Source of the DNA: Parvularcula mediterranea
Lineage (GTDB): Bacteria; Pseudomonadota; Alphaproteobacteria; Caulobacterales; Parvularculaceae
Direction of reading: 5' to 3'
Assembly: GCF_013085255.1 (NCBI RefSeq)
Contig: NZ_JABFCX010000002.1
Location: 1,478,501-1,542,500, forward strand
DNA length: 64,000 nt
Part shown: positions 2,346 through 39,687 of the stretch, piece after piece
How positions within the stretch are numbered: position 1 is the first letter of the stretch
Layout of the letters: each line of letters starts with the position of its first letter
Notes under the pieces: model-generated
What the model was told of the DNA's origin: nothing
Database searches by the model: none
Seen by the model: only the letters and a program-made list of their open reading frames with translations
Program-made: the position numbers and the translations under genes

Positions 2346-2399
2346 GGCACAGCAATCCTCCCCACTACCTGTTTTGCTCGCCAGCTGCAGAACGACGAA

Positions 2400-2440
2400 T
2401 ATTTTCGTTTACGAGCAGGAAATGTTCGAATACGAGTATT
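2400..2440. promoter_or_regulatory. Two tandem GlpR-like operators upstream of the TonB receptor
   Basis: The two copies lie at 2400-2417 (TATTTTCGTTTACGAGCA) and 2421-2440 (AATGTTCGAATACGAGTATT). By eye the second matches the E. coli GlpR operator consensus at 16 of 20 positions and the first at 14 of 18. They lie about 80-120 bp upstream of the receptor start, in the right place for a promoter operator. The resemblance is read from sequence; binding is inferred. Confidence 0.6.
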
Positions 2441-2518
2441 TACCATACCGAGCTTGAAAGCGGCGTTTGGGTTTTCCTGAACACAGACCGTGGCTCGGCG
2501 TGGATTACGGAGGAAACC

Positions 2519-12180: not shown

Positions 12181-12206
12181 ACGAAATACATTGCATTGCA
12201 TTTCGT
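12181..12206. promoter_or_regulatory. Palindromic operator candidate upstream of the island TonB receptor
   Basis: ACGAAATACATTG / CATTGCATTTCGT is a 26-bp imperfect palindrome (22 of 26 positions symmetric) about 90 bp before the receptor start. It shares the core TGCATTG and the following GTGTATTGT with the palindrome between the permease and fructokinase genes at 18100-18133. This suggests both are bound by the LacI-type repressor encoded in the same locus. Confidence 0.5.
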
Positions 12207-12292
12207 GTATTGTTTCCTGTTCACGTTCGGGTAAGCAAGGCTCAGGCGGCGGCTCTGATCGGCGCGAACAAGAACGTTCCAGGGAGGATCCA

Positions 12293-14563: not shown

Positions 14564-14590
14564 TCTCTCCCTGTTCAATCAGATGCGCCT

Positions 14591-14625
14591 CGGGCCGTTC
14601 CAGTCTTGGAGCGGCCCGTTTTTTT
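14591..14625 (+). terminator. Rho-independent terminator between TonB receptor and LacI gene
   Basis: Hairpin CGGGCCGTTCCA-GTCT-TGGAGCGGCCCG followed by seven T. It lies 28 bp after the receptor stop. Confidence 0.88.
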
Positions 14626-14647
14626 CGGCACAAACGGGGAGACATGA

Positions 14648-15682
14648 GTGAGCGAACGCCTCAATGGAGCTTGGATGAGCGGCAAACCGACCATGGCGGA
14701 TCTCGCCCGTGCGGCGCAGGTGGACGCCTCGACCGTGTCGAGGGCGCTCGCCGATAGTCCGCGTGTGAAGCAAGCGACGAAGGATCATATCAAGGCCATC
14801 GCCGAGAAGATCGGGTATGAGATCAACATTTCGGCCAGCAACCTGCGGAAGCAGGCAACCAAGACAATCGGAGTCGTTGTCCCGATCGACCCCACCCGCG
14901 GGCAGACCATTTCCGACCCGTTCTACCTCGAGATGCTGGGCGCGGTGACGACGGCAGCGGCGGACCGGGACTACGATTTGCTTCTCACGGTGCCGAAAAG
15001 CGACGAGAAAGTCGCAGAGAAGAGGCTCCTTACCACTGGAAAGGTCGATGGGCTCATCATCATCGGCCAGGCGGGGCGAAAGGAACGCCTCAACGCGCTG
15101 GCGCAGTCCACGGACCGTATTGTCGTCTGGGGCGGGGCCCTGGAGGATGCCCGGTATACGATCGTTGGCAGTGACAATGTGGAGGGCGGACGGACGGCTG
15201 GCCGCCATCTTCTCTCGCTCGGTCGCAGGCGGATTCTCTTCATCGGCGATACATCGCTTCCCGAAGTCGCTTTGCGCTACGAAGGCTTCCAGTCGGCGAT
15301 GGCGTCGCAAGGGGTTGAGCACGATCCGGACCTGATGCTGCCGCTCGGGTTCGGAGCGTCAACGACGGTGCGCGATGTGCTCAACCTCGTCGAGGACGGC
15401 CTCAAGTTCGACGCGATCTTCGCCGCCTCTGACGTGCTGGCCATTGCTGCCATGAGTGCGCTTCAGAAGGCGGGACGCGAGATCCCCGAGGATGTCGCCG
15501 TCGTTGGGTACGACAATGTCGGTCAGGCGGCAAACGCGCTTCCCTCGCTCTCCACCATCGACCAGAACATCGCTCTTGGCGGGGAGCTGCTCGTAGAACT
15601 CCTTCTACGGAAGATCAGGGGTGAGAAGGTCCGCTCTGAGCTGACGTCGACCGATCTTATTGTCAGGGCCTCGACGCTTTGA
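14648..15682 (+). CDS. LacI-family repressor of the fructoside locus
   Basis: A LacI/GalR-type regulator of about 344 residues. The HTH is at the N terminus (TMADLARAAQVDASTVSRAL), then the hinge helix NISASNLRKQATKTIGVVVP and a periplasmic-binding-protein-like sensor domain to the end. GTG 14648 has GGGGAGA upstream; ATG 14675, with GGAG upstream, would give 335 residues and is equally plausible. It lies between the receptor gene and the convergent fructosidase gene, and two related palindromes in the locus are candidate binding sites. By analogy with sucrose and fructan regulators the inducer may be sucrose or a fructose phosphate; this is inference. Confidence 0.88.
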   Translation: MSERLNGAWMSGKPTMADLARAAQVDASTVSRALADSPRVKQATKDHIKAIAEKIGYEINISASNLRKQATKTIGVVVPIDPTRGQTISDPFYLEMLGAVTTAAADRDYDLLLTVPKSDEKVAEKRLLTTGKVDGLIIIGQAGRKERLNALAQSTDRIVVWGGALEDARYTIVGSDNVEGGRTAGRHLLSLGRRRILFIGDTSLPEVALRYEGFQSAMASQGVEHDPDLMLPLGFGASTTVRDVLNLVEDGLKFDAIFAASDVLAIAAMSALQKAGREIPEDVAVVGYDNVGQAANALPSLSTIDQNIALGGELLVELLLRKIRGEKVRSELTSTDLIVRASTL

Positions 15683-15683
15683 C

Positions 15684-15718
15684 GCGCCCGCGGTTCAGGC
15701 GGCGGGCGCCGGCTTTTT
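15684..15718. terminator. Hairpin terminator between convergent lacI and fructosidase genes
   Basis: Perfect 8-bp stem GCGCCCGC / GCGGGCGC with a 10-nt loop, followed on the plus strand by CCGGCTTTTT. It begins directly after the LacI stop and overlaps the last codons of the convergent fructosidase gene. Confidence 0.7.
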
Positions 15719-16804
15719 GACGTTCTCAGGCTCGAGAGAAACCTTGCGGATATCGGCGAAGGTGAGTTGCAGCTCCGGTTCGGCCATTTCGGTGTACGGC
15801 GCTATCAGCGAAGCGCGCCTGCTGACGAAATCGACGTCTGAGAACTCGCCGCCGAACAGGTGCCTAATACCCGGCAATGTCGCGCCATCGGCTGCGTATG
15901 GCGTCCACGGACCATCGAAGCCCGGCGCCTGGTAAAGACGAAGCTCTTTCGAGACTTCCTCATCAGGTTGGTCTTCACTGACGCGGTTGCAGGTGGATGT
16001 CAGCATCAGGAGCGAGCCGTCGCGCGGATTGCGGTAGACTTTCGGAACCTCCGACTGCGTGTACTGAGAAACATCGGGCGGTACGATCGGATCATAGAGC
16101 TTGTCCATGACGTAGCCCTCATCGGTCAGTCTCACCCTCCCGGACGCCACCGCTGGCTCCGCAGGTCCGACCTTGCCCGCCCAATAGGCCCGCAGGGTGC
16201 CATCATCTTCAGGGACGAAGAACGGGTCACGCCAGGCGAGGATGGGGCCATCCTCTTCGCCCCCATCGGAGCCGAGCGTCGACCATGGGCCGAGATAATA
16301 GCCCGCCTTGCGGATCGCCTCATAGTCTCGCGACGGATCGGAGAGAACCACCGTATCGGCAAGGTCGGGCGTCGCCTCGGGCGAGGATGTCAGGAGGCAG
16401 ATGGATTGATGAAAGCTGCGCCCGACCCCGGGCTTCGTGACACCCGTGAACCCAAAGAGAAGCTGATCGCCGTGCAGCAGCGCCGAGCCGCTCCAGATAT
16501 TATGCTCGGTGGGTGATCCAGGTCGTTCGTCAGGACACAGATAGGCACCGCAATCCCGCCAGCTCTCACCGCCGTCCCCGGACGAGAAATGGCGCACGTG
16601 GAACGGATAGTCGTTCCGGTCGGCGGGGGTGATGGCCTGCCCGCAGCTGTTGGTCCTGGCGAGAGCCAGGCAGAAGAGGTGGAGGGTGCTCTCATCCGTG
16701 TACGTCCATGCATCCCAGAGCCACAGATCGGGATGTCGGATGCCATGGCGAAAGACCTGAGGGGAGGCCAGCGGGACAGCAACGGTGTGAGAACGAGAAT
16801 TCAT
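15695..16804 (-). CDS. GH68-like beta-fructosidase (cytoplasmic)
   Basis: A 369-residue glycoside hydrolase of the five-blade beta-propeller type. Three marks of GH68 (levansucrase/invertase) can be seen: LWLWDAW near the N terminus with Asp31 as probable nucleophile, EHNIWSGSALL, and LAWRDPFF carrying the RDP transition-state motif. A later SEVPKVYR is a good candidate for the acid/base Glu. No signal peptide is present from MNSRSHTV, so it should act inside the cell on sucrose or short fructans brought in by the adjacent permease. The frame is open up to 16960, but the start at 16804 lies 4 bp after the permease stop, as expected for an operon. Classification against GH32 or GH43 would need a profile search. 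Confidence 0.78.
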   Translation of the reverse strand: MNSRSHTVAVPLASPQVFRHGIRHPDLWLWDAWTYTDESTLHLFCLALARTNSCGQAITPADRNDYPFHVRHFSSGDGGESWRDCGAYLCPDERPGSPTEHNIWSGSALLHGDQLLFGFTGVTKPGVGRSFHQSICLLTSSPEATPDLADTVVLSDPSRDYEAIRKAGYYLGPWSTLGSDGGEEDGPILAWRDPFFVPEDDGTLRAYWAGKVGPAEPAVASGRVRLTDEGYVMDKLYDPIVPPDVSQYTQSEVPKVYRNPRDGSLLMLTSTCNRVSEDQPDEEVSKELRLYQAPGFDGPWTPYAADGATLPGIRHLFGGEFSDVDFVSRRASLIAPYTEMAEPELQLTFADIRKVSLEPENVKKPAPAA

Positions 16805-16808
16805 CCGA

Positions 16809-18053
16809 TCAGTACTCACTCTCGTTGGCTTCGCGGAGTGCCTTGCCGGCCGGGTCCCTGATGAGGTTGAAGAGCGTACCTGCGAAGAGGAGCAGCGCAA
16901 AGCCTGTCGCAAGACCGAAGCCGACCTTGAGGTCGCCGCCGCCGAACCGGTCGCTGGCAAAGGCCATGGCGAGGGGCGCGAGCGCCGCAGCGGCCGCGGT
17001 GAAGAAGAGCGTGACCCCCGCGACGGCGCCGTGGTCGACCTTGGGATAGCAGCTGATCGCCTTGGAATTGAGGGTCGGGTAAATCATCGACATGAAGAGA
17101 CCGGAGAGGGGAAGGAGGTACACGGCCCAAACCTGGCCCCCCACCATACTCCCCGCGAAGCACGCGAAGATGAGACCGGTGAAGAGAACGAGGACGATCT
17201 TCCAGTCGAGGAGGTTGAGCACGAAGACCCCCAAGAAACGCCCCGCAGCGCGCAACACGAAGAAGATCATGACGGCGTAGGCTGCGAAAAAGGCTGTCAT
17301 GCCCGAAGCCTCGAAGCCGTCGAGGAATGTCGGCAACCAGACGAAGATTGCCACCTCCGACGCCACGTAAAGCGCGATCATCATCGAAAAACCGAAGGCA
17401 TAGGGGCTGCGCATCAGGCGCAGGGTGTGGCCGAGCCCGGCCTCGCTCTTTTCCGACTGCACCGTAGGCGGAAAAGTGGCGCGGGACATCGCGACGATCA
17501 TCACGGCACAAAGTGCCGCGGCCACGATGTAAAGCCAGCGCCAGCTCGCGCCTGAATGGTCAAGATAAACGACGAGAGCCGGCCCCGCGATGGCGCCGAC
17601 GCCGAAGAAGCCTTCGACCGCGTTCATTTTCTTGGTGTGGTCGTCGGTCGAGCTAGAAATATCGCCGATGACCGCAAGCCCCGCTGTCTTGAAGATGCCG
17701 ATGGCAAAGCCGGATATGAACAGAAGTACCGTATATAACTGAAAGGATGAGCCAGCGAAGAAGAGAGCACTGGCGACCCCGTAAAGCGCGAGACCGATGA
17801 CGATGGTTCGCTTCCGGCCGATGGAATCCGACAGGAAGCCCAAGGTCACGCCGCTCAGCGCGATGGCAATCATCGTGGCCCAGTGGAACGCAGCCGCTTC
17901 GGTGTTGGTGATCCCAAGCTCACCCCGCGCGATCGAGATGATCTCGCCCACCGCGTCGGTGGTCATGCCGAACATGAAGAACATCGCGAAGACGAGTGCC
18001 GTCACCACGCCATATGTGGCAGCTGGCAATGTGTGCGCAGAGGTCTGGCTCAT
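16809..18053 (-). CDS. MFS sugar permease (FHS/fucose-type family)
   Basis: About 414 residues with 12 predicted membrane helices. The motif between helices 2 and 3 is LSDSIGRKRTIV, as in the major facilitator superfamily. The general pattern (FFMFGMTTDAVGEI in helix 1, EVAIFVWLPTFL in helix 7) resembles the fucose/galactose/glucose:H+ symporter family. The start at 18053 is preferred over upstream ones because GAGG lies 10 bp before it and the upstream codons cover the operator region. It is co-transcribed with the fructosidase and divergent from the fructokinase. Proposed role: inner-membrane import of sucrose or fructose; the exact sugar is not known. Confidence 0.85.
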   Translation of the reverse strand: MSQTSAHTLPAATYGVVTALVFAMFFMFGMTTDAVGEIISIARGELGITNTEAAAFHWATMIAIALSGVTLGFLSDSIGRKRTIVIGLALYGVASALFFAGSSFQLYTVLLFISGFAIGIFKTAGLAVIGDISSSTDDHTKKMNAVEGFFGVGAIAGPALVVYLDHSGASWRWLYIVAAALCAVMIVAMSRATFPPTVQSEKSEAGLGHTLRLMRSPYAFGFSMMIALYVASEVAIFVWLPTFLDGFEASGMTAFFAAYAVMIFFVLRAAGRFLGVFVLNLLDWKIVLVLFTGLIFACFAGSMVGGQVWAVYLLPLSGLFMSMIYPTLNSKAISCYPKVDHGAVAGVTLFFTAAAAALAPLAMAFASDRFGGGDLKVGFGLATGFALLLFAGTLFNLIRDPAGKALREANESEY

Positions 18054-18099
18054 GGTTCGCAATCCTCGCATGTTCGACATCAGAGTCCTACCTAAGCTG

Positions 18100-18133
18100 T
18101 ACACGGCGAGGCAATGCATTGGCAAGCCGTGTA
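18100..18133. promoter_or_regulatory. Palindromic operator candidate between permease and fructokinase genes
   Basis: Nested symmetry about one centre: outer arms TACACGGC / GCCGTGTA and inner palindrome CAATGCATTG. It lies in the 124-bp divergent promoter region and shares TGCATTG and GTGTATTGT with the palindrome at 12181-12206. It is a good site for the local LacI repressor to control both directions. Confidence 0.55.
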
Positions 18134-18177
18134 TTGTGTGATTAGGACAGCGGCGGAGCAGCGTTCAGGATGAGGCT

Positions 18178-19080
18178 ATGACGAAGGAGCTGATCGCCGG
18201 CATCGACGCGGGCGGCACGACGTTCAAGCTTGGTGTGAGTGACCGGGACGGACGCCTCTTGGCCAAGGCGCGCGTGCCGACCACGACACCCGAAGAGACG
18301 GTGGGTGATGCGAGCATGAAGCTTCAGGAGCTGGCGGCGGCTGCCGGAGGCCGGATCGGTCGGCTGGGCGTCGCCACCTTCGGCCCCGTGGACGTCGACG
18401 AGTCGTCCCCAAACTACGGGACAATCCTCGCCACGCCGAAGCCTGGTTGGTCAGGGACGCCCTTGCTGCGCAACCTGTCAAAGGCCCTCGGAGTTCCAGG
18501 TCGTCTCGATACGGACGTCAACGGAGCGCTCGAAGCGGAAATGCAGCTTGGTGCCGGTCGCGGTCTTTCTCGCGTCGCCTATATCACCGTGGGGACGGGG
18601 ATCGGTGTTGGTCTCAAAAGCGAAGGGCAGTTCGCGGGGCGGCCGCTCCATCCTGAACTCGGTCATATTCGCGTGGTGCGCCATCCGGAAGACCAGCACT
18701 ACGAAGGTCGTTGCGCCTTTCACAGGGACTGCCTCGAAGGCCTCAGTGCGGCACCCGCTCTATCCGATAGGTTCGGCGATCTTGAAAGTTTGGGTACAGA
18801 TCATCCAGTCTGGGAAATGGCCGGGCATTACCTTGCGCAGCTTTGCTTGACCCTGGCACTCGGGTCGCGGCTCGAGCGGATCATCTTGGGCGGCGGTGTG
18901 CTCGGTGCGCCGGCGTTGATCAGCTCGGTTCAGCGCCACTTCGCGCGGCTGGATGGGGGCTACCTTCCAGAAGCAGGCCGTCTGCAGGAATTGTTGCAGA
19001 AGGCGCAACTTGGCGATGATGCGGGCCTGCTGGGAAGCTTCCTGATCGCCCAAGGGGTCGATGCGAAGGCTCGGCCGTAG
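18178..19080 (+). CDS. ROK-family fructokinase
   Basis: A 300-residue sugar kinase that should make fructose 6-phosphate from ATP and fructose released by the fructosidase. The phosphate-binding motif DAGGTTFKLGV is at residues 10-20, and the sugar/catalytic region has DTDVNGA and ITVGTGIGVG. The ROK fructokinase signature HPELGHIRV is followed by a Cys/His cluster (GRCAFHRDCLEG) that binds zinc in this family. Glucose ROK kinases have CxCGxxGC instead, which supports fructose. It is divergent from the permease-fructosidase operon across the palindrome at 18100-18133. Confidence 0.87.
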   Translation: MTKELIAGIDAGGTTFKLGVSDRDGRLLAKARVPTTTPEETVGDASMKLQELAAAAGGRIGRLGVATFGPVDVDESSPNYGTILATPKPGWSGTPLLRNLSKALGVPGRLDTDVNGALEAEMQLGAGRGLSRVAYITVGTGIGVGLKSEGQFAGRPLHPELGHIRVVRHPEDQHYEGRCAFHRDCLEGLSAAPALSDRFGDLESLGTDHPVWEMAGHYLAQLCLTLALGSRLERIILGGGVLGAPALISSVQRHFARLDGGYLPEAGRLQELLQKAQLGDDAGLLGSFLIAQGVDAKARP

Positions 19081-19542: not shown

Positions 19543-20484
19543 CTACCTGACGATCCGGAAGCCAATGTGAGATGTTCCGTAGGCGAGGTTTTGCGCCTGA
19601 CGGGCGGCTGGCCGGAACCGCGCGCAATAGGAGAACGAGCAGAGGTAGGAGCCTCCCTTGATCGTTGCGACGGCGGCTCCGGGTTGATTGGGATCGAAGC
19701 CGATCCTGCCTGCTACCCTCTTGTCGTCCGCCCTGTGGGACGGCGCGTAGGGCGTGGCTGTCCACTCCCAGACGTTCCCCATCATGTCGTGAAGGCCGAA
19801 GGCATTGGCCTCGAAGGATGCCACGGGGGCGAGGCCCTCGAAGCCGTCCTTGCCGGTATCGATGGCGGGGAAGAGCCCCTGCCAGGTGTTGGCGCGCTTG
19901 TTCAGCGCTTCCGCCTCAGCCTTGGTCCATCGCATGACGGAGCCATCGGGCGCGGCCCGGGCGGCAAACTCCCATTCCTCTTCGGTCGGCAAGCGAGCGC
20001 CCGCCCAGTCGGCGTAGGCTTCTGCGTCCTCCCGGGTGACGTGGATGACCGGGAGTTGGCCTGAGGGCCTTGAGCTGCCGGGGCCCTTAGGTGCCTGCCA
20101 GTTGGCGCCCTCTACGAACCGCCACCAGTCGAGCTCTTCCCGCGAAGGCCTGCTGGGCGGTGCGAAGACTGCAGCGCCGGGGGGCATGGCGATACCGGGG
20201 CCGCCGGGCTCATCAGCTTTCCAACCTCGCTCCGCTCGGGTCCTGTAGCCTGTTGCCTCCACAAAGGCCGTGAACTGAGCATTGGTGATTTCAGTTCGGG
20301 AGATGGAGAAAGGCTCGACGCAGGCGGGGACCTGCGGGCGCTCTTCGGGGTTGCCCTCTTCGGCGCCAATGGTGAAGCAGCCTCCTTCGAGGGCGACCCA
20401 ATCTACGTCCTCGCCGCGAGACTGACCGAGAGCCGATAGCGCGACGAGGGCAGCTGTGCATGTGTTGCGAAGTGCAGGGTTCAT
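19543..20484 (-). CDS. Formylglycine-generating enzyme family protein (sulfatase maturase)
   Basis: A 313-residue SUMF1/FGE-domain protein. Enzymes of this family oxidise the active-site Cys of sulfatases to formylglycine. Both copper-binding catalytic cysteines of true FGE are present in GGSYLCSFSYCARFRPAARQ (Cys282 and Cys287), along with the family motifs EITNAQFTAFV, LPTEEEWEFAAR and GNVWEWT. The N terminus looks like a signal peptide (residues 1-24), which would place the enzyme in the periplasm. Its ATG overlaps the stop of the sulfatase gene (ATGA), so the two are translationally coupled and the sulfatase is the obvious client. Confidence 0.88.
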   Translation of the reverse strand: MNPALRNTCTAALVALSALGQSRGEDVDWVALEGGCFTIGAEEGNPEERPQVPACVEPFSISRTEITNAQFTAFVEATGYRTRAERGWKADEPGGPGIAMPPGAAVFAPPSRPSREELDWWRFVEGANWQAPKGPGSSRPSGQLPVIHVTREDAEAYADWAGARLPTEEEWEFAARAAPDGSVMRWTKAEAEALNKRANTWQGLFPAIDTGKDGFEGLAPVASFEANAFGLHDMMGNVWEWTATPYAPSHRADDKRVAGRIGFDPNQPGAAVATIKGGSYLCSFSYCARFRPAARQAQNLAYGTSHIGFRIVR

Positions 20485-22004
20485 CCGCGTTCGTACTGTT
20501 CCTGCCAGTCCTCAATGTCCGACTTGAAGGTTGAAATCAGCTCCGGGTTCTCCTCTGACACGTCAGCCAGCTGTCCGGGGTCGTTCTCAAGGTCGTAGAG
20601 CGCGGTCTCGCCGGTTTCAGGCAGCCAGACGAAGTGCCAGCGTAGGTCCCGGCGATAATAACCGCTCCTTGCTGCTCCCATGTGATCGTCGGTGAAGTCA
20701 TCGGGCTCACCGCGGAAGTTCGTACCCGCACGATGCTGGGTCATCCTGCCGATGAAGTACTCGCGGGGCGCGGGCAGGCTGCCTGCTTCAATGGCTGGAC
20801 GCAGGGAATAGCCGGGGAGGTCTTCGGGCGCCTCAACGCCGACGTAGTCGAGGATCGTCGGCATGATATCGAGTGCGCTGGCAAGGTTCGCCGTATCGCG
20901 CATCGCCGTGATCTTGCCCTGCCAATAGAAGATGATCGGTGTACGGAACCCTGTTTCGAAGAAGGAGCCTTTGCCTCGCGGACCGCCATTGGCGAAGGTG
21001 ATGTTATCGTCCGTATACTCAACATCGGCATCCTGCTCCCAGCCATTGTCGTTGATGTAGACGATGAGTGTGTTGTCCATGACCCGCTGGTCGTGGAGTG
21101 TGTCGAGGATCTTCCCGACGCCCCAGTCGAACCATGCGATGTTAGCGTAATAGAGCTTTGCGGACTGGGAGAGGTCATCCCGCTCTGCGAAATACTTGTA
21201 GAACTCGTTCGGTGCGTTGAGCGGGGTATGCGGAAGAGCCGGACCGTACCAGACGAAAAACGGTTGGTCCGCATGCTCTTCAATGAAGGTCTCCAGCGGC
21301 TCCATTGTCTCGCGGCCGATCTTCTGGCCCTGGCCGCCCATGAAGGTGAAGAACCATCGATCGCCAAGGTCGACGGCGTCCTGTACGTCCCAGCTCTCGG
21401 TCATGCCGTGGGTGAACCCGCCATGGGCGTAGGACTGCTCCCACCATTTGCCGCTCTGATGCGAGACGTAGCCCTGGTCCTGCAGGATACGCGGGAGCGT
21501 CTTGAACTGCTCAATGGCGGAGGTGTGGAGCTTCTGCCGGTACATGGACTGCTCGCGCTGACTGTCGAGGCTGTCCGGGACACCATCCGTGGCGAGAGCA
21601 TTCTCGACAATCTCGTTCGCCCTCTGATCATATTGGACAGGGTAGAGGCCAGTGATCAGGGTCTGGAGTGTGGGTCTGCAGAAGTTTGATGTCGCATGGC
21701 CCACCTCAAAGACCGTTCCGCCATTGCCGATGATATCCATGTTCGGCGTGACGACATTCTCGTCCCCTAAGAAGCCCAGGTAGGGCCAGCCGAGATCATC
21801 CGCGATGATGAGGACGACGTTGGGCGGGCCATCAGGGCGCCGGGGCTCAACGGTGCGGTCGATCTCTCCTGCATAGGTGTCGTCGAAGACGCCGCCGAAG
21901 TCGAAGGCTTCGGTTTTGGCTTCGGACTCTGGCTGGGTCGCCTCATGTCCTTCGCATGCGGAGAGGAGGAGGGCTAGGATACTCGCTGAGATCTTGCGGT
22001 GCAT
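20481..22004 (-). CDS. Arylsulfatase-type S1 sulfatase, lipoprotein
   Basis: A 507-residue sulfatase that should remove sulfate esters from a saccharide. The lipobox LLLSAC gives Cys17 as lipid anchor. Metal site DD is at residues 69-70. The maturation motif is CRPTLQTLITG starting at Cys109; FGE clients usually have C-x-P-x-R, and here Leu113 stands in the Arg position. Further motifs are PALPHTPLN, INDNGWEQD (metal site DN) and KGSFFETGFRTP. It is third in an operon after the AraC regulator and the amylase, and overlaps the FGE gene. The substrate is unknown; the amylase next to it suggests a sulfated alpha-glucoside or glucan. Confidence 0.9.
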   Translation of the reverse strand: MHRKISASILALLLSACEGHEATQPESEAKTEAFDFGGVFDDTYAGEIDRTVEPRRPDGPPNVVLIIADDLGWPYLGFLGDENVVTPNMDIIGNGGTVFEVGHATSNFCRPTLQTLITGLYPVQYDQRANEIVENALATDGVPDSLDSQREQSMYRQKLHTSAIEQFKTLPRILQDQGYVSHQSGKWWEQSYAHGGFTHGMTESWDVQDAVDLGDRWFFTFMGGQGQKIGRETMEPLETFIEEHADQPFFVWYGPALPHTPLNAPNEFYKYFAERDDLSQSAKLYYANIAWFDWGVGKILDTLHDQRVMDNTLIVYINDNGWEQDADVEYTDDNITFANGGPRGKGSFFETGFRTPIIFYWQGKITAMRDTANLASALDIMPTILDYVGVEAPEDLPGYSLRPAIEAGSLPAPREYFIGRMTQHRAGTNFRGEPDDFTDDHMGAARSGYYRRDLRWHFVWLPETGETALYDLENDPGQLADVSEENPELISTFKSDIEDWQEQYERG

Positions 22005-22048
22005 TGAGTCATCCTGCTCTTTGGACGGAGGGAAGTGGATTGCTGGCG

Positions 22049-23680
22049 CTAGTCACTTGTGGCTTCGCCTTGCGCTGTCGGGACCGCGGCGATGGCCACG
22101 CCGTAGGCGCTGAGGACAGCAGAGCCTGCGCTTGGGCCAACGGAACCTGTGACGGGCATCCAGTCGGCGTCTTGTATTGCGAGGGGTGCTTCCACGGCCC
22201 CGAAGTTGAAGGCGACGAGGACGCTGCCTTCGAGGTGCTCGCGTCTCAGGACGACAGTGTCACCGCTGGTCTCCGCAACTGCTGTCGAGCCGTTAGCGAG
22301 GGCCGGATGGTTGGCTCTGAGGCGCGTGAGACGTCGATAGAACGCGAGGAGCGAGCCTTCGTCAGCTTCCTGAACGTCCACCCATTCGGGGCCATCGAGA
22401 GCGTGGGCGCTGGGTAGGTCGTATGCTGAGGGGTCACTGAGATACCAGTCGGCGAGGGCGTCAGGCTGCTGGCTGTCCCAACGCATGGCTTCTCTGATGG
22501 GGATATCGCGCACATCATGCTGGGAGGAGAGGAGGGCGTCGGGAAGGTCGCCTTCAAGCTTTTCGCCGCGCATTCCGAGTTCCTGGCCGTAGTAGAGGAT
22601 CGGCGTCCATCCGGTGAGTAGGTTTGATGCCGCAGCAAGGCGGAGAGCCCTTGGGTCCTCAAGGTGGGAAGCTATTCGGTCCGTGTCGTGATTTTCTACG
22701 AACACGAACTGGCCGTGGTCACTGCCAAGGACAGCGTTCGTCTCGCTCACAGCGTCAGCAAAGCCTGCCCCATCAAGATCAAGGATGGCCCCCCGGATCG
22801 GGAAGCCAAAGACCATGTCGGCTTCGCCTTGATTGACGAATGCCTCGCCATAGCCCCAGTCCGCCTGCTCTGCGATGATCTTGATGTCTGGCTTGGCTTC
22901 ACGGAGTTCGTCAAATATTGGTACCCAGAACGCATCGAATAGACCAGTCAGTACACCAGCATTATCGAGATCATCCATCATGTGGTCGATCCGGTATCCA
23001 TCGGCACCGTCTGAGAAGTGACCGTCTCCGTTGGGATCGAGCCAGAACAGGAGGTACTCGGTGAAGTAGGCGCGCGCCTTTTCGCTGAGCAGGTCGACGG
23101 TGTAGATGTTCTGCTTCTGGCTGGGCCAGACGTCGAACTCCGTCAGGTTGAAAAGCGTCCCTACCGGTCGAGTGTTCTGCTCGTCGTCGAACAGGACGTA
23201 GCCGTCAGACGGTGAGCCAGGATTGCCGGACGCCTCCTTGAACCATTCATGCTGTCCACTGACATATTGGATTTCCTGATCGAGGATGATCGTCATGCCG
23301 CGTTGGTGGATCTCCTCGACGAGTGCGACGTAGTCCTCCATCGAGCCGAACTCCGGGTCGATCCCATAGAAGTCGTTGGCGAAGTAATTGTGGTAGAACT
23401 GGGATGGATAGAGCGGCGTCAGGAGGATGCCTGTCACGCCAAGCGATTGAAGAAAATCGAGCTTTTGGCGGATTCCATCCAGATCTCCCTGTCGGTCGCC
23501 ATCGCTGTCTGCGAAGCTCCTGACGAAGATGTGGTAGTAAAGCTCTGGCTGCGGAGGTTCCTGCTGTTCCGGTGTGTTGGGAGTTTTGGACGAAAGAGGT
23601 GCCTGCGTGTCTGCAGGTTCTGTCCTCTGCGAACAGCTGGCGATCAGGATGGCGAGGAAGAGCGCGGGAATGAGCTTCAT
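22049..23680 (-). CDS. GH13 alpha-amylase family lipoprotein
   Basis: A 543-residue glycoside hydrolase of family 13. The lipobox LIASC gives Cys16 as lipid anchor, so it acts at the outer membrane or in the periplasm. The (beta/alpha)8 barrel begins at LYYHIFVRSFADSDGDRQGD. The catalytic triad is complete: Asp in DGYRIDHM, Glu in IIAEQADW and Asp in FVENHDTDR. The C-terminal beta domain has HLEGSVLVAFNFG. The start overlaps the AraC stop by one base (TAATG), and the sulfatase follows after 44 bp. It presumably cleaves alpha-1,4 linkages in an oligosaccharide; linkage and substrate cannot be read off. Confidence 0.92.
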   Translation of the reverse strand: MKLIPALFLAILIASCSQRTEPADTQAPLSSKTPNTPEQQEPPQPELYYHIFVRSFADSDGDRQGDLDGIRQKLDFLQSLGVTGILLTPLYPSQFYHNYFANDFYGIDPEFGSMEDYVALVEEIHQRGMTIILDQEIQYVSGQHEWFKEASGNPGSPSDGYVLFDDEQNTRPVGTLFNLTEFDVWPSQKQNIYTVDLLSEKARAYFTEYLLFWLDPNGDGHFSDGADGYRIDHMMDDLDNAGVLTGLFDAFWVPIFDELREAKPDIKIIAEQADWGYGEAFVNQGEADMVFGFPIRGAILDLDGAGFADAVSETNAVLGSDHGQFVFVENHDTDRIASHLEDPRALRLAAASNLLTGWTPILYYGQELGMRGEKLEGDLPDALLSSQHDVRDIPIREAMRWDSQQPDALADWYLSDPSAYDLPSAHALDGPEWVDVQEADEGSLLAFYRRLTRLRANHPALANGSTAVAETSGDTVVLRREHLEGSVLVAFNFGAVEAPLAIQDADWMPVTGSVGPSAGSAVLSAYGVAIAAVPTAQGEATSD

Positions 23681-24549
23681 TAATAGAAAGCCTCTGCTGA
23701 TGTTGGGGCTTCATGAGATGCTCTGAACCCTGACGGTGTGACCCCGAATCTCTTGTGAAAGGACGCGGTGAAGTGTGATGGGCTGCGGAAGCCGTGCTCG
23801 TAGGCGATGTCTGAGATCGGCTGTGCACTGCTGGATATGCGCAGGGCGGCGCGGCGCAACCGGTAATGGCGTTCATACTCCGCGAAGCCGGACCCGAAAG
23901 CCTGTTTGAAACTTCGCGAGAAATAGTGCCGGGACAGGTGACAGCGCGCCGCGGCTTCCTCCACGCTCACCGTCCGGTGCGCGGTATCCGCGACGAGTTC
24001 CAGCGCAGGTCGCAGCCGTGAGCGGAACGTCTCTCTTTGGACGGGCACAGTGCTGTGCACATCATCCGAAGTCATTAGCGCGGCGAGAAGCGTTGCGAAA
24101 AGGCGCGGGGGGAGGGCGGAATGGCAACGGCCCTCAAGCGCTTCCGCCGTCCATGCGATCAGCGTCCGGAACCTCTCGCGTTCAGTGCCCTGAGCTTGGA
24201 GAACGAATGCATCGTCCGGTGGAGCGATGCCGTCCTTGCGCAGAAGCTCTGCAACAAGGCCGGCATCGGCGTGGAGGACTGTCCAATCCCTCGGCCCAGC
24301 CTCAAGGGAGAAGTCGTGGAAACGCATCGAAGGGACGTACACGATGCACCCGGAGCTGATGGGATAGTCGCCGCCGAGCGTGTGAAGGGTGCCTTTCGCC
24401 TGTTCGAAGAAGATGAACTCGTGGGCATCGTGGAAGTGCGGGAAGAGGCGTTCCTCAGCAGGCCCGTGCGCGTCGGAGACCGTCTCCGCTCGCAGCGCGA
24501 TGGCCGGGTCGAGTGCGACTGGCTCGCAGAGTGTCGGTTTCGAACTCAT
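23680..24549 (-). CDS. AraC-family transcriptional regulator
   Basis: 289 residues. The N-terminal half is a cupin-like sensor (HFHDAHEFIFFEQAKGTLHT), and the C-terminal half carries two helix-turn-helix motifs: VSVEEAAARCHLSRHYFSRS and ISDIAYEHGFRSPSHFTASF. It is first in the operon with the amylase, sulfatase and FGE genes, so it is probably their activator and autoregulated. The promoter lies in the 157-bp gap shared with the divergent dioxygenase gene, which has an inverted repeat TCGCA-CAGA-TGCGA near 24623. The inducer is probably the sugar handled by the operon. Confidence 0.9.
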   Translation of the reverse strand: MSSKPTLCEPVALDPAIALRAETVSDAHGPAEERLFPHFHDAHEFIFFEQAKGTLHTLGGDYPISSGCIVYVPSMRFHDFSLEAGPRDWTVLHADAGLVAELLRKDGIAPPDDAFVLQAQGTERERFRTLIAWTAEALEGRCHSALPPRLFATLLAALMTSDDVHSTVPVQRETFRSRLRPALELVADTAHRTVSVEEAAARCHLSRHYFSRSFKQAFGSGFAEYERHYRLRRAALRISSSAQPISDIAYEHGFRSPSHFTASFHKRFGVTPSGFRASHEAPTSAEAFY

Positions 24550-24706
24550 CGCACGGGTTTTATACTGCCTAGGCAGGCCTGGGAACCAGACCCTTCTGTC
24601 AAACAGCAGTCATTCCGCAGGATCGCACAGATGCGATAGCTAATCACTGGTGCTACGATAGTGGCGCTACTCGAAACTGTTGTGATTGGAGGGCTAGATC
24701 TTCTCT

Positions 24707-25549
24707 ATGTCGGACCCTGAGCCTCCTTCTGACCTCGCTGACCTTGATTGGGTCGATGAGCCGGTCACGCTCGATCGAGATGCGTGCGCGCGGTTCGATC
24801 GTGACGGGTTCGTCCTCCTTCGCGACGTTCTTCCTGCGGAGAAGCTTGCGAGGATCGGCGAGGAGATCACGGCGCTGACGCTGGCGCTGAACGAGGAAGA
24901 CAGGCCCCTCGAAGAGCGCGATACCTACGATCGCGCGTTTCTTCAGGTGATGAACCTTTGGCGTCATTCCGAGCGTGTGAAGCGGTTCGTGTTCGGGAGG
25001 CGGCTGGCGGGGCTGGCCGCTGAGCTTCTCGGCAAGGATGGTGTTCGTCTGTACCACGATCAATCGCTCTACAAGGAGCCGTCGGGCGGCATCACCCCTG
25101 CGCATGCGGACCAGTACTACTGGCCCCTGTCATCGGATCGTACGGTGACAGCTTGGATCCCGCTTCAGCCGGTCCCGGAGGAGATGGGACCTCTCGCCTT
25201 CTTTGCGGGCAGTCAGCATGCGGAGCTAGGACGGGACCTACCGATTTCTGATGAAAGCGAGGCGACCATCCGCCGGGAGATGCAGGCCCAGGGCTTTCCT
25301 CTGGTTCAAAGCCCCTTCGCCCTCGGCGATGTCAGTTTCCATGCCGGTTGGACATTCCACCTCGCTGGCGCGAACCAGTCTGACCGTCCACGTTCCGTGA
25401 TGACGATGATCTACATGGACAAGGACATCAGGCTCGCGGCGCCGACGAACAGCTTTCAGGAAAATGACCGGGCAACCTGGATGCCGGGCGCGAGGGTCGG
25501 GGAGGTGGTGGATACTCCGCTCAACCCGATCTTGATCGACAAGGGCTAA
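24707..25549 (+). CDS. PhyH-family Fe(II)/2-oxoglutarate dioxygenase
   Basis: A 280-residue protein of the phytanoyl-CoA dioxygenase superfamily. The non-heme iron ligands are visible: His133 and Asp135 in TPAHADQYYWPL and His218 in WTFHLAGAN, with Arg in SDRPRSVMTMIY as probable 2-oxoglutarate contact. It therefore looks catalytically complete. Members hydroxylate many substrates, and nothing here names one. It is divergent from the AraC-amylase-sulfatase-FGE operon and may be controlled with it. Confidence 0.87.
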   Translation: MSDPEPPSDLADLDWVDEPVTLDRDACARFDRDGFVLLRDVLPAEKLARIGEEITALTLALNEEDRPLEERDTYDRAFLQVMNLWRHSERVKRFVFGRRLAGLAAELLGKDGVRLYHDQSLYKEPSGGITPAHADQYYWPLSSDRTVTAWIPLQPVPEEMGPLAFFAGSQHAELGRDLPISDESEATIRREMQAQGFPLVQSPFALGDVSFHAGWTFHLAGANQSDRPRSVMTMIYMDKDIRLAAPTNSFQENDRATWMPGARVGEVVDTPLNPILIDKG

Positions 25550-25630: not shown

Positions 25631-26044
25631 TCAACGAACTGCGGCTGTAGCGTCGCTCGTGCCACCTGATGGCGCTGAAGTGTTGTCCCCGAGGACCTGC
25701 GCCAGGGCAGCTTCGAGGTCTTCGCGGTTCATCGGCTTCTGCACCACCGGGTAGGCGTGGAACTCACCGGGCAGTTCCTTGGCGTTGTAGCCAGTGAGGA
25801 AAACCACGGCCGTTCCGTCTGCGATCAGGTCCCTTGCAAGCTCAAAGCTTGTGACGTTGGAGCCGAGATGGATGTCGAGGATCGCAAGGTCGAAGTGCTC
25901 GTCGCCAGCGCGTTTCACCTGCTTCAGTGAGGCTGCGGAGACGATGTCCTTGAACCCGATCTGACCGAGAGTGAGTTCCCCATCGAGCGCGACAAGTGTT
26001 TCGTCCTCGAGATAGAGTACGCGCAGATCAGAATAATTTTCCAC
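25631..26044 (-). CDS. Single-domain response regulator
   Basis: A 137-residue receiver domain without an output domain. Acidic pocket EDE is at residues 13-15, the phosphoacceptor is Asp57 in LAILDIHLG, Thr is in VFLTGYNA and Lys104 in VVQKPMN. The GTG at 26044 is chosen: it has GAGGAT upstream and the family begins there. The frame is open up to 26131 but would run into the kinase gene. With this start it overlaps the kinase 3' end by 17 bp, so the pair is coupled. It is the likely phosphate acceptor of the HWE kinase. Confidence 0.85.
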   Translation of the reverse strand: MENYSDLRVLYLEDETLVALDGELTLGQIGFKDIVSAASLKQVKRAGDEHFDLAILDIHLGSNVTSFELARDLIADGTAVVFLTGYNAKELPGEFHAYPVVQKPMNREDLEAALAQVLGDNTSAPSGGTSDATAAVR

Positions 26045-29000
26045 TGATATCCTCGTCGAACTCCGTGATACTCTCACTAGGAACAGTGATAACACAGCGC
26101 AGACCGCTTGGTTCCCAGAAAAGTTCCACATTTCCGTCGAGGGTTCGTTCGATGGTCGATTTGATGAGCGTCGATCCGAAGCCTTCCCTCGTGGGGGGCT
26201 CGATCTGCTCTGGGCAGGTCTCCTGCCAGTTCATGCGGAAGACCTCGCCATCGCCTTCGTCGGTGCGGGACCAGCTGACGTCTAGCTTGCCGTCCGGCTG
26301 GGCGAGGCAGCCATACTTCGCGGCGTTGGTCGCAAGCTCATGAACGGCCATGCCGAGCGCGAGGGTCGCTTTTGAATTGCAGCGGATCGACGGGCCACGC
26401 AGGGACACGATGTCGTCGCCGTAGACGCGCGTGAGCTCCGGTTCGATGAGCTCCCTGAACGTTGCCGAGTGCCAGTTCTCCTGGGTGAGCAACTGGTGCG
26501 TTTTTCCGAGCGCCGTGATCCGGTTGAAGAGGGTGTGGAGGACCTGCTCGGCATCGCCTTCTTCGAGGCGCGCCCGATTCACGAGCGCCGCGACGTTGGC
26601 CAGCATGTTCTTCACCCGATGCTGCAGCTCGAGCATGACGCGGCGAAGCTCTTCCTGAACCTCCTTATACGCCGTAACGTCCCGGACGTTGACGCCCACG
26701 GCAGCCACGTCACCCGCGACGTGGAGAGGATACCAGTCGACGATCCAGGTCAGGTCCCGGTCAGGGTTTGCAGGCGTCCTACCGACGACTTCCTGGTTGA
26801 GGATCGCTTTGCCGGTTTCGAAGACTTTCCGCACCGGTTCGATGACGGTCTGGCCAAGCTCGGGAACGATCTCGTCTATGCGCTTGCCGAAATGATCCTC
26901 AATCGGAATACCGTTGATTTCTGCAAGGCCCTTATTGGCGCGAATGTAGGTGAGGTCAGGGCCGAAGAGCGCCATCGCCACAGGGCTGACCCGATAGAGC
27001 TCATTAACCTCCGCCAGACGCTGCTGCGCTTCGAGCTTCGCCACGTCGAGCTCGCGAGCATTGCGGCGCATCTCAGTGACATCAATCAGTGTGAAGATCA
27101 CGCCTAGGTCGCTATCGTCACTGTCCCTGGACGCTGCCGCGCGGAGGATGAATTCGAACTCTTCGTCAAAAGACTTCAGGTCAGTTTCGATCATCTCGCC
27201 GGTATCAAGAACGCTCTTGCACAGCGGGGCCAACGCTCCGACCGGGAAGATTGAAGCTATATCGTCGAGCGGCCTGCCGATGTCCGCCTCAACGAAACGG
27301 AAATACTTGAGCGATTCTTCCGTATACCGCTTAACGGCGAGCTTGTCATCGAGGAAAACCGTCGCGAGGCTCGTGCTTGCGACGAAGCCATTGAGATCCG
27401 CGTTGAGCTCATTGAGCTCTGAGATCTTCGCCTGAAGCTCTTCATTGATCGTCGACAGCTCTTCGTTCGAGGACTGAAGTTCCTCGTTCATCGACATCAT
27501 TTCTTCGTTGGAGCTTTTCAGCTCCTCGTTCGATGTCTCGAGCTCTTCGATCGTCGTCCTGACGGTCTGGCGCGCGTCGTCCAGCTCCTGTTCGAGTTCC
27601 CGGACATACTCGCTTTCATCGCCGCTCGATGCTGCCAGGGTGCGGTCGACGGAAGGGATCTCATCGCCCTTCTGGTGGAAGACGAAGAACCGCTCGCCTG
27701 TGCTCAGCCGTTCACTCGTGACCTCGAGATCAAGGGCCTCGCCATCGATCTCACCGGTGAAGGATGCTGAACTGACTTCGCCATCCCGCTCCGTAGCCTG
27801 ATTGTTCAGCCTGCGGATTGTACTCTCGAGGCTGGGGTGGATGAGGTTGCTGAGGGTGACCTGCATGTCGCCAGAGCGAAGCTTGCAGAACTTCTCTGCC
27901 CCGGGGGACAGCCTAGTAACCGTACCGCCCGGTGCGGTGGCGATGAATGGCGGGGAGTGGCGCTCGAGGATTGCGTCCCGGACGGCGTCACTCGATTGGC
28001 GCGAATAGCCCGAGGACTGGTCCCCGTGCGTGTCGAGCCGCCGGTTGAGCCCAATCGGCGAGAGCGGGAGGCTCAAAGGTTCCGAAGGGCGCCCGTCGCG
28101 CTCATAGATATGATGTGCGGTACTGAAATCCGAGAAACCGGGGTGTACGGATTGGGGTGTTTCGCTTGTCCCAAGAAACAGGTACCGACCCGGCTTGAGC
28201 GAGTAGTGGAACACCTTGAAGGCGTGCTCCTGCAGAGGCTTCTCAAAATAGATCAGCAGGTTCCGGCAAGAGATCAGGTCGAGCTTGGAGAAGGGCGGGT
28301 CCTTGATGAGGCTGTGTTCCGAGAAGCGGACGAGGGACCGCAGCTTCTTCCCCACTTCGAAACCTGCTTGCGTGGGCTGCATGTAGCGCTGCAGCAGGTC
28401 CTCGGGGATCTTCTCCGCGGCGATGTTTCCATACTGGCCTGCACGTGCGACCTGCAGGGCCTCGTCGTCGATATCGGTCCCAAAGATCGTGACCAGCGGC
28501 TTGCCATCGGACCGCTCGAGCTCTGCGGCGATCAGCATGCCGATCGAATAAGCCTCCTCGCCGGTGGAGCAGCCGGGAACCCATACGCGGACTTCGTCGC
28601 TCTTGCCCTTGCCGCGGACGATGCTCGGTATGACGTGTGTTTTCAGGGTCTCGAACGCGTCGGGATCACGGAAGAAGCCCGTGACGTTGATGAGGACATC
28701 GCGTTGAAGCTTCACCGCTTCCTGACGATCCTGGATCAGCTTCTCGAGATATTGGGAGGGGCTGACCGTTCCGAGCGCCGACATGCGCACCGCGAGACGG
28801 CGCAGCAACGTGGATTGTTTGTAGTCGGAGAAATCATGCCCGGTGTGATAGCGGACATGCTTGAAGACTCGCGAGACGAACTCGTAATTGTTGTCGATCG
28901 TCGGCCCGATGCCTGTACGCCGCTGGCGATAGTCGCGCAGGACGTCGGCCATCTCGGCGATGGTCAGGGTGAGGTCGACCGCGCCGCTCGCAATCGCGCT

Positions 29001-29507
29001 CTTCGGCATTCCGTCATAGGAAGCCTCGGTGGGGTTCTGCGCGAGGACGAGACCACCGGCTTCCTTGATCGCCTTGATGCCGTCCGAGCCGTCGCTGCCC
29101 GTGCCGGACAGGATAATCCCGACGCAGTCTTCGCCCTGGTCCTCGGCGAGGGAGCGGAAGAAGGTATCGATGGGACGGCGCTGCCCGCGTGGGCTATCGA
29201 AGTCTGCGAGGTGCAGCTCGCGGTCCTTGATCGTGAGGGAGGCGCCTGGCGGGATCAGGTAGATGTTGCCGCTTTCGACCCGCATGCCTTCTTCTGCCGT
29301 GTGAACGGGGGTGCTGGTGCGCTTCGTCAGCAGTTCCTGAAGCAGGCTCCGGTGATCGGGGTCGAGGTGCTGCACGAGGATGATGGCCAGCTTCTCGTTC
29401 GCGGAGAGCCTCGCAAACAGGTCGCGAAAGGCTTCGAACCCTCCGGCCGAGGCGCCGACGCCCACGACAAGTTCGCGGCTATCCTGATTCATTTCGGAGT
29501 TGTTCAT
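26028..29507 (-). CDS. CheB-CheR-PAS-HWE histidine kinase fusion protein
   Basis: A very large 1159-residue signalling protein. Order of parts: a CheB methylesterase domain (about 10-195, active-site Ser20 in GASAGG, GTGSDGSDG); a CheR methyltransferase domain (about 215-480, VPGCSTGEEAYSIG for SAM binding); a coiled coil rich in SNEEL repeats (about 640-710); two PAS domains (about 720-960); and an HWE kinase with phosphoacceptor His963 in LQHRVKNML, N box HELATNAAKYG and a short Trp-x-Glu motif. No membrane segments are seen. Fusions of this layout are known in alphaproteobacteria and are thought to work outside classical chemotaxis. It is coupled to the response regulator and divergent from the LOV gene. 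Confidence 0.92.
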   Translation of the reverse strand: MNNSEMNQDSRELVVGVGASAGGFEAFRDLFARLSANEKLAIILVQHLDPDHRSLLQELLTKRTSTPVHTAEEGMRVESGNIYLIPPGASLTIKDRELHLADFDSPRGQRRPIDTFFRSLAEDQGEDCVGIILSGTGSDGSDGIKAIKEAGGLVLAQNPTEASYDGMPKSAIASGAVDLTLTIAEMADVLRDYRQRRTGIGPTIDNNYEFVSRVFKHVRYHTGHDFSDYKQSTLLRRLAVRMSALGTVSPSQYLEKLIQDRQEAVKLQRDVLINVTGFFRDPDAFETLKTHVIPSIVRGKGKSDEVRVWVPGCSTGEEAYSIGMLIAAELERSDGKPLVTIFGTDIDDEALQVARAGQYGNIAAEKIPEDLLQRYMQPTQAGFEVGKKLRSLVRFSEHSLIKDPPFSKLDLISCRNLLIYFEKPLQEHAFKVFHYSLKPGRYLFLGTSETPQSVHPGFSDFSTAHHIYERDGRPSEPLSLPLSPIGLNRRLDTHGDQSSGYSRQSSDAVRDAILERHSPPFIATAPGGTVTRLSPGAEKFCKLRSGDMQVTLSNLIHPSLESTIRRLNNQATERDGEVSSASFTGEIDGEALDLEVTSERLSTGERFFVFHQKGDEIPSVDRTLAASSGDESEYVRELEQELDDARQTVRTTIEELETSNEELKSSNEEMMSMNEELQSSNEELSTINEELQAKISELNELNADLNGFVASTSLATVFLDDKLAVKRYTEESLKYFRFVEADIGRPLDDIASIFPVGALAPLCKSVLDTGEMIETDLKSFDEEFEFILRAAASRDSDDSDLGVIFTLIDVTEMRRNARELDVAKLEAQQRLAEVNELYRVSPVAMALFGPDLTYIRANKGLAEINGIPIEDHFGKRIDEIVPELGQTVIEPVRKVFETGKAILNQEVVGRTPANPDRDLTWIVDWYPLHVAGDVAAVGVNVRDVTAYKEVQEELRRVMLELQHRVKNMLANVAALVNRARLEEGDAEQVLHTLFNRITALGKTHQLLTQENWHSATFRELIEPELTRVYGDDIVSLRGPSIRCNSKATLALGMAVHELATNAAKYGCLAQPDGKLDVSWSRTDEGDGEVFRMNWQETCPEQIEPPTREGFGSTLIKSTIERTLDGNVELFWEPSGLRCVITVPSESITEFDEDISGKLF

Positions 29508-30181: not shown

Positions 30182-31174
30182 ATGATCTTCGACCGCCGTA
30201 CCTTCCTGCTCGCCAGTGCCGCGAGTGTGGCTGCCTGCTCTCGCGAGACCCCTTCGACAGAGGCTGCGGCATCGCCGAAGAGCATCCTGGCGGCCGGGGC
30301 AGAACTCGAAGTCCTGGCGGAAGGCTATGGTTGGTCCGAGGGGCCGACCTGGGACTATGACCGAGGCGCGCTCTACTTCACCGACGTCCCCGGAAACACG
30401 GCTTATCAGTGGACGCGCGCGAGCGGCGTCGAGGTCTTTCTCCAGCCCTCAGGGACCGACAGCGCAGAGGGTTTCCGCGAGCCGGGGGCGAACGGGCTCT
30501 GCTATGAAGGGGAGGGCAAGCTCCTCGTCTGCAATCATGGCCTGAGGCGCGTCGAGCGGTTGGACATCGCAACGGGCGAGCGGACGCCGCTGGCTTCGAG
30601 CTACAATGGCGAGCCGTTCAACTCGCCGAATGATATCTGCAAGGCGGCAGACGGCACGATCTACTTCACCGATCCGCCCTACGGCCTTCAGGGTCAGGAC
30701 GATTCCCCGATGAAGCGGCAGGACTCTAACGGCGTCTATCGTCTGAAGACGGACGGAACGGTCGAGCGGCTTCTCTCGGATATGGTCAGGCCCAACGGCA
30801 TTGCACTCTCGCCTGACGAAAGCACCCTCTACATCACCCAGTCCGACCGGGTACAGCCGATCCTCAGGCGCGCAACACCGACTGCGGCTGGGCTTGATGA
30901 CGTCAGGACGCTGATGGATATTTCGCCCTATATGGGTGAGGACACGCCGGGCTACGCCGACGGCATGGCCATCGCGGCGAGCGGCGAGGTGCTTGTCGCA
31001 GGTCCCGGCGGGGTTCTGGTCATCTCGCCCGAAGGCGAGCTTGTCGAGCGGATCATGACGGACAGCGCAGCGGCGAACTGCTGCTTCGGTGAGGACGGCA
31101 CGACGCTCTTCATCACAGCGCACAAGCGCCTCCTCCGCGTGCGCACGACCCTCACGGGCGCCAAGTTCGCCTGA
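30182..31174 (+). CDS. Gluconolactonase (SMP-30 family), Tat-exported lipoprotein
   Basis: A 330-residue six-blade beta-propeller lactonase. The N terminus has a twin-arginine motif (DRRTFLLASA) and a lipobox ending at Cys19. Family motifs are EGPTWDYDRGALYFTDV, NGLCYEGEGKLLVC, SPNDICKAADGTIYFTDPPY and PNGIALSPDESTLY, including the metal-binding Glu and Asn/Asp residues. It should hydrolyse aldonolactones, such as gluconolactone, to the free acids in the periplasm. Its stop overlaps the start of the GntP permease gene (TGATG), which would import the product. Confidence 0.87.
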   Translation: MIFDRRTFLLASAASVAACSRETPSTEAAASPKSILAAGAELEVLAEGYGWSEGPTWDYDRGALYFTDVPGNTAYQWTRASGVEVFLQPSGTDSAEGFREPGANGLCYEGEGKLLVCNHGLRRVERLDIATGERTPLASSYNGEPFNSPNDICKAADGTIYFTDPPYGLQGQDDSPMKRQDSNGVYRLKTDGTVERLLSDMVRPNGIALSPDESTLYITQSDRVQPILRRATPTAAGLDDVRTLMDISPYMGEDTPGYADGMAIAASGEVLVAGPGGVLVISPEGELVERIMTDSAAANCCFGEDGTTLFITAHKRLLRVRTTLTGAKFA

Positions 31175-33881: not shown

Positions 33882-33890
33882 GGTTGGTCT

Positions 33891-34916: not shown

Positions 34917-34996
34917 GGGCTCGCCAAGCGGGCCGCTCTCTGCCTAAGGTTCCCGCAAAATCGTCCGGCCCCGATGCGCCGGAGCGGGGAGGCATC

Positions 34997-36718: not shown

Positions 36719-36766
36719 ACGGAACGAGCGCTCCGGGCTATCTGGCGATCAAGCAAGGAGCGCAGC

Positions 36767-39602: not shown

Positions 39603-39687
39603 CGCTAACTCCCGGAATTCGTCTCTTTGACGTTCGACCCTTCCAGAGAAGATAGTGCCAACGCAACGCCTTTCGATCATCGCCTCG

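Follow-up and report, generated by a model that had tools for sequence, protein, structure and literature searches.

A GH13-sulfatase operon and a divergent PhyH gene in Parvularcula mediterranea, possibly the local part of a system for a sulfated, O-methylated alpha-glucoside

The use of porphyran by Formosa and Zobellia includes the demethylation of 6-O-methyl-D-galactose, a process associated with a CYP236A cytochrome P450, its redox partners, an alcohol dehydrogenase (ADH) and an esterase. O-Demethylation of 6-O-methyl-galactose by a P450 is described in the available text of PMC10033563 and PMC8360166, and that of PMC10033563 adds that marine polysaccharide-degrading bacteria carry this arrangement of CYP, redox partners, esterase and ADH, and that knock-out of the ADH impairs growth on 6-O-methyl-galactose. 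Two further points of comparison are the starch/maltodextrin loci, where a regulator and a TonB receptor accompany GH13 enzymes and a maltose ABC or MFS transporter, and the formylglycine-dependent S1 sulfatases. How does the locus described here relate to these systems? It lies in a stretch of 64,000 nucleotides from Parvularcula mediterranea (the window), in which an AraC-type regulator, a GH13 enzyme, a sulfatase and a formylglycine-generating enzyme (FGE) form a single minus-strand operon, next to a divergently transcribed gene for a PhyH-family dioxygenase. We tentatively propose, at a little under an even chance, that these genes are the local contribution to a system that breaks down an alpha-glucoside bearing both sulfate and an O-methyl group, the methyl most likely at O6; the substrate could be an oligo- or a polysaccharide. 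The features are as follows.

23680..24549, minus strand: AraC-type regulator, first gene of the operon (AraC-type HTH, PF12833, 7.2e-20)
22049..23680, minus strand: GH13 enzyme with a lipobox-like N-terminus, LIASC (Alpha-amylase, PF00128, 2.1e-51)
20481..22004, minus strand: S1-type sulfatase with a lipobox-like N-terminus, LLSAC (Sulfatase, PF00884, 2.9e-44)
19543..20484, minus strand: FGE, the sulfatase maturase, with a Sec-like leader (FGE-sulfatase, PF03781, 2e-65)
24550..24706, no strand: divergent intergenic region of 157 bp between the AraC and PhyH genes (read from the sequence)
24707..25549, plus strand: PhyH-family Fe(II)/2-oxoglutarate dioxygenase (PF05721, 1.2e-28)

The AraC and GH13 genes overlap by one base (TAATG), 44 bp separate GH13 from the sulfatase, and the sulfatase and FGE genes overlap by four bases (ATGA). 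The open reading frame (ORF) coordinates thus bear out the junctions given in the original prediction, and Pfam clearly assigns all five families that it had named. It had also called the GH13 enzyme and the sulfatase lipoproteins, and the lipobox-like N-termini fit that description as far as a reading by eye goes, these motifs and the leader of FGE having been judged without a predictor. The 157-bp region is likely to be a control region shared by the AraC and PhyH genes.

In the proposed system the AraC protein would sense a breakdown product. Exported FGE would mature the lipoprotein sulfatase, which would strip sulfate at the cell envelope, where the lipoprotein GH13 enzyme would cleave alpha-glycosidic bonds. 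The sugar would then be imported, and a cytoplasmic PhyH would oxidise its methyl group with O2 and 2-oxoglutarate to generate formaldehyde and the free hexose, the same demethylation that a CYP236-type P450 would perform in relatives.

The O-methyl group enters the proposal because relatives carry a CYP236-type P450 that is not found together with PhyH in any genome tested. These relatives were reached through the sulfatase, by searching 62 genomes of the family and by scanning genome contigs with short sulfatase peptides, from which the best 80 of 521 loci were kept; L numbers denote loci and G numbers genomes, G000 being the window's own. The P450 gene (~380 aa) is divergent from the sulfatase gene in L033, follows it immediately in L034 and stands one gene off in L048. 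In two genomes it is instead immediately upstream of GH13, by 3 bp in G041 and by 0 bp on crude ORF calls in G454, where it runs past the contig end. The two P450s that were searched against the PDB have 6g5o/6g5q as best match (1.5e-85 and 1.1e-99), followed at a distance by 2.5e-29 and 1.6e-34. We take 6g5o to be FoCYP236A2, which demethylates 6-O-methyl-galactose in Formosa agariphila; identity to it is 38-44% for six alpha- and gammaproteobacterial proteins and 66-72% for those of the Bacteroidota genomes G455 and G463. As in Formosa and Zobellia, an ADH and then an esterase follow the P450 in L143 and L144, and the L143 ADH has its best PDB matches in 8h2a/8h2b (3.4e-129 and 1.4e-128; next distinct protein 3.1e-52), which are the FoADH/ZoADH of PMC10033563. 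These loci are unlike the porphyran system in that the neighbouring glycosidases are GH13 or GH127-like, with no agarase or porphyranase noticed, in that the module ADH occurs in three of the eight P450 genomes, and in that PhyH takes the place of the P450 in the window's genome.

What suggests that PhyH stands in for the P450, and is thus itself a sugar O-demethylase, is the distribution of the two genes together with the low background and the neighbours of PhyH. The distribution was taken over 21 genomes of the sulfatase clade, namely G000, G041 and G056 together with those behind 18 of the 80 scan loci, for the most part the closest ones (the genomes of L052-L111 lie outside the set). Here the P450 (E<=1e-40) is present in 8, PhyH (E<=1e-20) in 6, neither in 7 and both in none, an absence of overlap with a hypergeometric P of 0.03 when kinship is ignored. 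The ten genomes with a close sulfatase (at least 54% identity; G000, G041, G056, G446, G447, G448, G449, G450, G452 and G454) divide into six with the P450, two with PhyH and two with neither; G451 (L037) and G453 (L039) were taken as the same assemblies as G056 and G041, respectively, given their identical places and scores. Background searches covered 385 genomes of the class, with only a few candidates per genome scored where these were numerous. The P450 (E<=1e-70) was found in none of them and in one of the 62 family genomes, G041, which is also a sulfatase genome; recovery of this match indicates that the query can find true ones. PhyH (E<=1e-60), whose background was taken from the class genomes and not from the family, was found only in the window's own genome. 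With regard to neighbours, PhyH follows the sulfatase by 30 bp in the Bacteroidota locus L041, is flanked by a sugar-porter gene and an SSS-type transporter gene in L140 and L141 (families tested on L140 only), and in L142, from a third related genome, is followed only by the SSS-type gene. The PhyH residues H133 and D135 of the HxD motif, H212, H218 and R229 are invariant in six aligned sequences; presumably HxD and one of the later histidines, H212 or H218, are the iron ligands and the arginine binds 2-oxoglutarate. A predicted PhyH structure (mean pLDDT 61 from six sequences) was rejected as a basis for a fold search.

Why O6 in particular? According to the available text of PMC11239784, the histidine of conserved sequence region I (CSR-I) is among the most conserved positions of GH13, and an NH ending of this region is typical of most subfamilies. 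In the window's enzyme the region ends in QY (138-139), which is invariant in a group of five aligned sequences that spans two phyla (Proteobacteria plus one from Bacteroidota), as is the Asp-Glu-Asp catalytic triad D232/E271/D332; five other GH13s aligned from the same loci retain the histidine. This histidine contacts O6 of the glucose in subsite -1, and its absence from the QY group is what points to a methyl group at that position. The predicted model of the enzyme (mean pLDDT 65), which informs on fold and not on specificity, gave Z scores of 24.6-27.3 among the 50 matches listed, nearly all of them titled amylases, glucosidases or related alpha-glucan enzymes.

The surroundings of the sulfatase in relatives also recall alpha-glucan use, the labels for Mal-type and alpha-glucosidase-type genes being a reading of their sequences. 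In G056 one 13.3-kb contig (L123) holds PhyH, a divergent AraC-GH13 pair, a sugar-type MFS transporter, the sulfatase and two more GH13s, one of alpha-glucosidase type and one large, with a glucodextranase-type C-terminal module. In G446 (L032/L143, from a record titled Henriciella) one 32-kb contig carries the sulfatase, MalK/G/F/E-type genes and two GH13s of these same types, and continues with an AraC gene and then the P450-ADH-esterase row. The window's AraC is 39% identical to this protein beside the P450 and 43% identical to the one beside PhyH in G056; the Bacteroidota AraC genes of L040 and L048 (26% over 104 aa and 21% over 251 aa) are not evident orthologues. In G041 (L122) an alpha-glucosidase-type GH13 lies about 8 kb from the sulfatase, on the far side of the FGE-sulfatase pair; two tryptophan-halogenase-family genes (1530-3047 and 7118-8620 of L122) stand beside a TonB receptor and the alpha-glucosidase-type gene. 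The GH13s and maltose- or sugar-type transporters of G446 and G056, and the alpha-glucan hydrolases that are the structural neighbours of the window's GH13, resemble what is known of starch/maltodextrin loci, whereas the sulfatase, AraC and candidate demethylase genes inside the locus and a GH13 devoid of the CSR-I histidine do not.

The place of the sulfatase within the maltose/alpha-glucan loci of G446 and G056, and its co-occurrence with GH13, would also suit a sulfated alpha-glucan free of methyl groups, which is how the original prediction had it, with PhyH unrelated or acting elsewhere. This explanation is rather unlikely, since PhyH keeps its divergent place next to AraC-GH13 in G056, comes after the sulfatase in L041, and shares no tested genome with the P450.

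Another alternative is that the genes are loose neighbours, with a sulfatase that scavenges sulfate from many esters, an ordinary amylase and an unrelated PhyH. The four-gene order occurs in no relative examined (the L050 contig is cut inside the sulfatase and lacks the upstream side), GH13 orthologues are present in four of the ten close-sulfatase genomes and missing from six, and in this respect the original prediction is not supported. The commoner pair is sulfatase-FGE, adjacent in six of the ten (the window, L033, L034, L036, L122 and L050), with an FGE homologue (E<=1e-30) in all ten; some absences may be gaps, as the genomes reached through the scan loci are mostly titled metagenome-assembled genomes. 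Within the family, sulfatase orthologues (E<=1e-200) occur in three of the 62 genomes, G000, G041 and G056, and GH13 orthologues (E<=1e-60) in the same three, the chance of the other two coinciding being 1 in 1830 if genomes are assumed independent; in G041 the two genes are on separate contigs, and G056 holds a second sulfatase homologue (48%). Among the 385 class genomes, searched with the limit on scored candidates given above, the sulfatase (E<=1e-60) is found in the window's own alone. The shared occurrence and the maltose-type surroundings speak for the sulfated alpha-glucan first proposed as substrate; the unconserved operon and the stronger tie of the sulfatase to FGE speak the other way. 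The coincidence in three genomes, the translational coupling, the special residues kept in five GH13s from two phyla and the AraC orthologues that two relatives have next to GH13 or P450 together render the loose-neighbour explanation unlikely, and more so than the methyl-free glucan. Least probable is a sulfated glycoconjugate with a sterol, lipid or saponin part, whose aglycone the P450 or PhyH would hydroxylate while GH13 and sulfatase removed sugar and sulfate, since, although both oxygenase families frequently act on lipids or terpenoids, the two searched P450s match 6g5o far above other PDB P450s, one is accompanied by a FoADH/ZoADH-type ADH, and in L140 and L141 PhyH has a sugar- or solute-type transporter on either side.

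The sulfatase, the only PF00884 match in its genome (E<=0.001), scores 152 bits against a curated cut-off of 25, and with a best PDB match of only 122.5 bits it appears to have no close solved relative there. In S1 sulfatases a CxPxR-type motif directs formylglycine formation. The available text of PMC8746622 gives (C/S)xPxR as the consensus, and His113 as completely conserved among the solved sulfatases of its table; this histidine we take as the equivalent of that in GKWH. In the window's protein C109 stands in C-R-P-T-L, with Leu113 replacing the arginine, and GKWWE takes the place of GKWH, with Trp188 replacing the histidine. Removal of short (<400 query residues) or identical sequences reduced 104 matching loci to 95, and the resulting 96 rows, window included, fell to 94 once two window copies were removed. 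Leu and Trp occur together in 81 of the 94, the canonical Arg and His together in 13, all from the family search, and a mixture in none. Selection favoured Trp188, since the scan peptides include HQSGKWWE; none of these peptides covers Leu113. All 94 sequences have the Cys and the first Lys, and the 82 counted for further positions (window, scan loci, and L030/L031 from the family search) also share the Asp-Asp, Asp-Asn, second Lys and later His without exception. The protein resembles S1 sulfatases in its metal-binding Asp/Asn residues, its Cys, both Lys and the later His, and differs from them in the joint change of Arg and His. Most loci that carry the Leu/Trp clade, among the best 80 of 521, are titled Planctomycetota, Verrucomicrobiota or Bacteroidota. 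The FGE matches 5nxl (3.9e-56) and 6s07, itself an FGE (4.5e-56), and keeps the paired active-site cysteines (GGSYLCSFSYC) in alignment with both; such paired cysteines bind copper.

Several points weigh against a sulfated, O-methylated alpha-glucoside as the substrate. Since the sulfatase lacks the usual Arg and His, there is reason to doubt that it functions in the ordinary way. The exclusion of P450 and PhyH has P = 0.03, the 21 genomes include close kin, a third have neither gene, and G450 and G452 are without both despite a close sulfatase. The evidence from P450 and ADH comes from relatives: the window's genome holds no CYP236-type P450 (E<=1e-40 search of G000) and no close module ADH, the best match being 33% identical to the L143 protein. 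Even in relatives the module ADH (at least 54% identity to that of L143) is confined to G446, G449 and G455, and of the loci read just two, L145 and L146, have a ferredoxin reductase beside the P450. The ADH serves here solely as a marker of the demethylation module, because the one in the available text of PMC10033563 is inactive in formaldehyde detoxification, for which reason that role was dropped for the P450-linked ADH and esterase. GH13 is missing from most close-sulfatase genomes, as given above, and in the Bacteroidota loci L040, L042, L043 and L048 a GH127-like enzyme accompanies the sulfatase clade, so that the substrate may vary and may not be purely glucan. The nearest solved relatives of PhyH are SnoN/SnoK, and we know of no activity for this PhyH group. 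Finally, a sulfated 6-O-methyl alpha-glucan was not found described in the open-licence literature searched, where neither sulfatase-GH13-P450 sets, nor PhyH in sugar use, nor a sulfated or methylated alpha-glucan was recognised.

The original prediction had overlooked the CYP236-type P450 of relatives, its exclusion with PhyH and the unusual active-site residues of both the sulfatase and the GH13 enzyme. Taken jointly they could describe (i) a pathway for a sulfated, O6-methylated alpha-glucan, (ii) a PhyH that represents a novel type of sugar O-demethylase and can be exchanged for CYP236 P450s, (iii) a GH13 clade whose loss of the CSR-I histidine lets subsite -1 take a 6-O-methyl sugar, and (iv) a widespread sulfatase clade whose formylglycine site has been rebuilt, with Leu/Trp where Arg/His are usual; that all four hold together is doubtful. 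If they do, oxidative sugar demethylation extends beyond red-algal galactans to an alpha-glucan, a candidate 2-oxoglutarate dioxygenase is named for it, and a methylated, sulfated glucan not yet described is implied. The Leu/Trp sulfatases also test how much change the formylglycine mechanism and recognition by FGE tolerate.

Other sugar-related genes flank the locus. Positions 12191-19080 of the window hold a TonB receptor, a LacI regulator, a 421-aa ORF (no Pfam, NCBIfam (E<=0.001) or PDB match), an MFS transporter and a ROK kinase that comes closest to the fructokinase ScrK, with a score below the ScrK cut-off; this is a separate, adjoining sugar cluster, possibly for sucrose or fructan. 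A further sugar-use cluster at 30182-39704 comprises genes for a gluconolactonase-like protein, a GntP permease, an MFS_2 transporter, LacI, a carboxylesterase, a ferredoxin-reductase-type enzyme and a trehalase-family enzyme (PF01204). Between this cluster and PhyH, a 1159-aa ORF (26028-29507) resembles by eye a CheB/CheR-PAS-histidine kinase fusion and is followed by a small response-regulator-like ORF (25631-26131).

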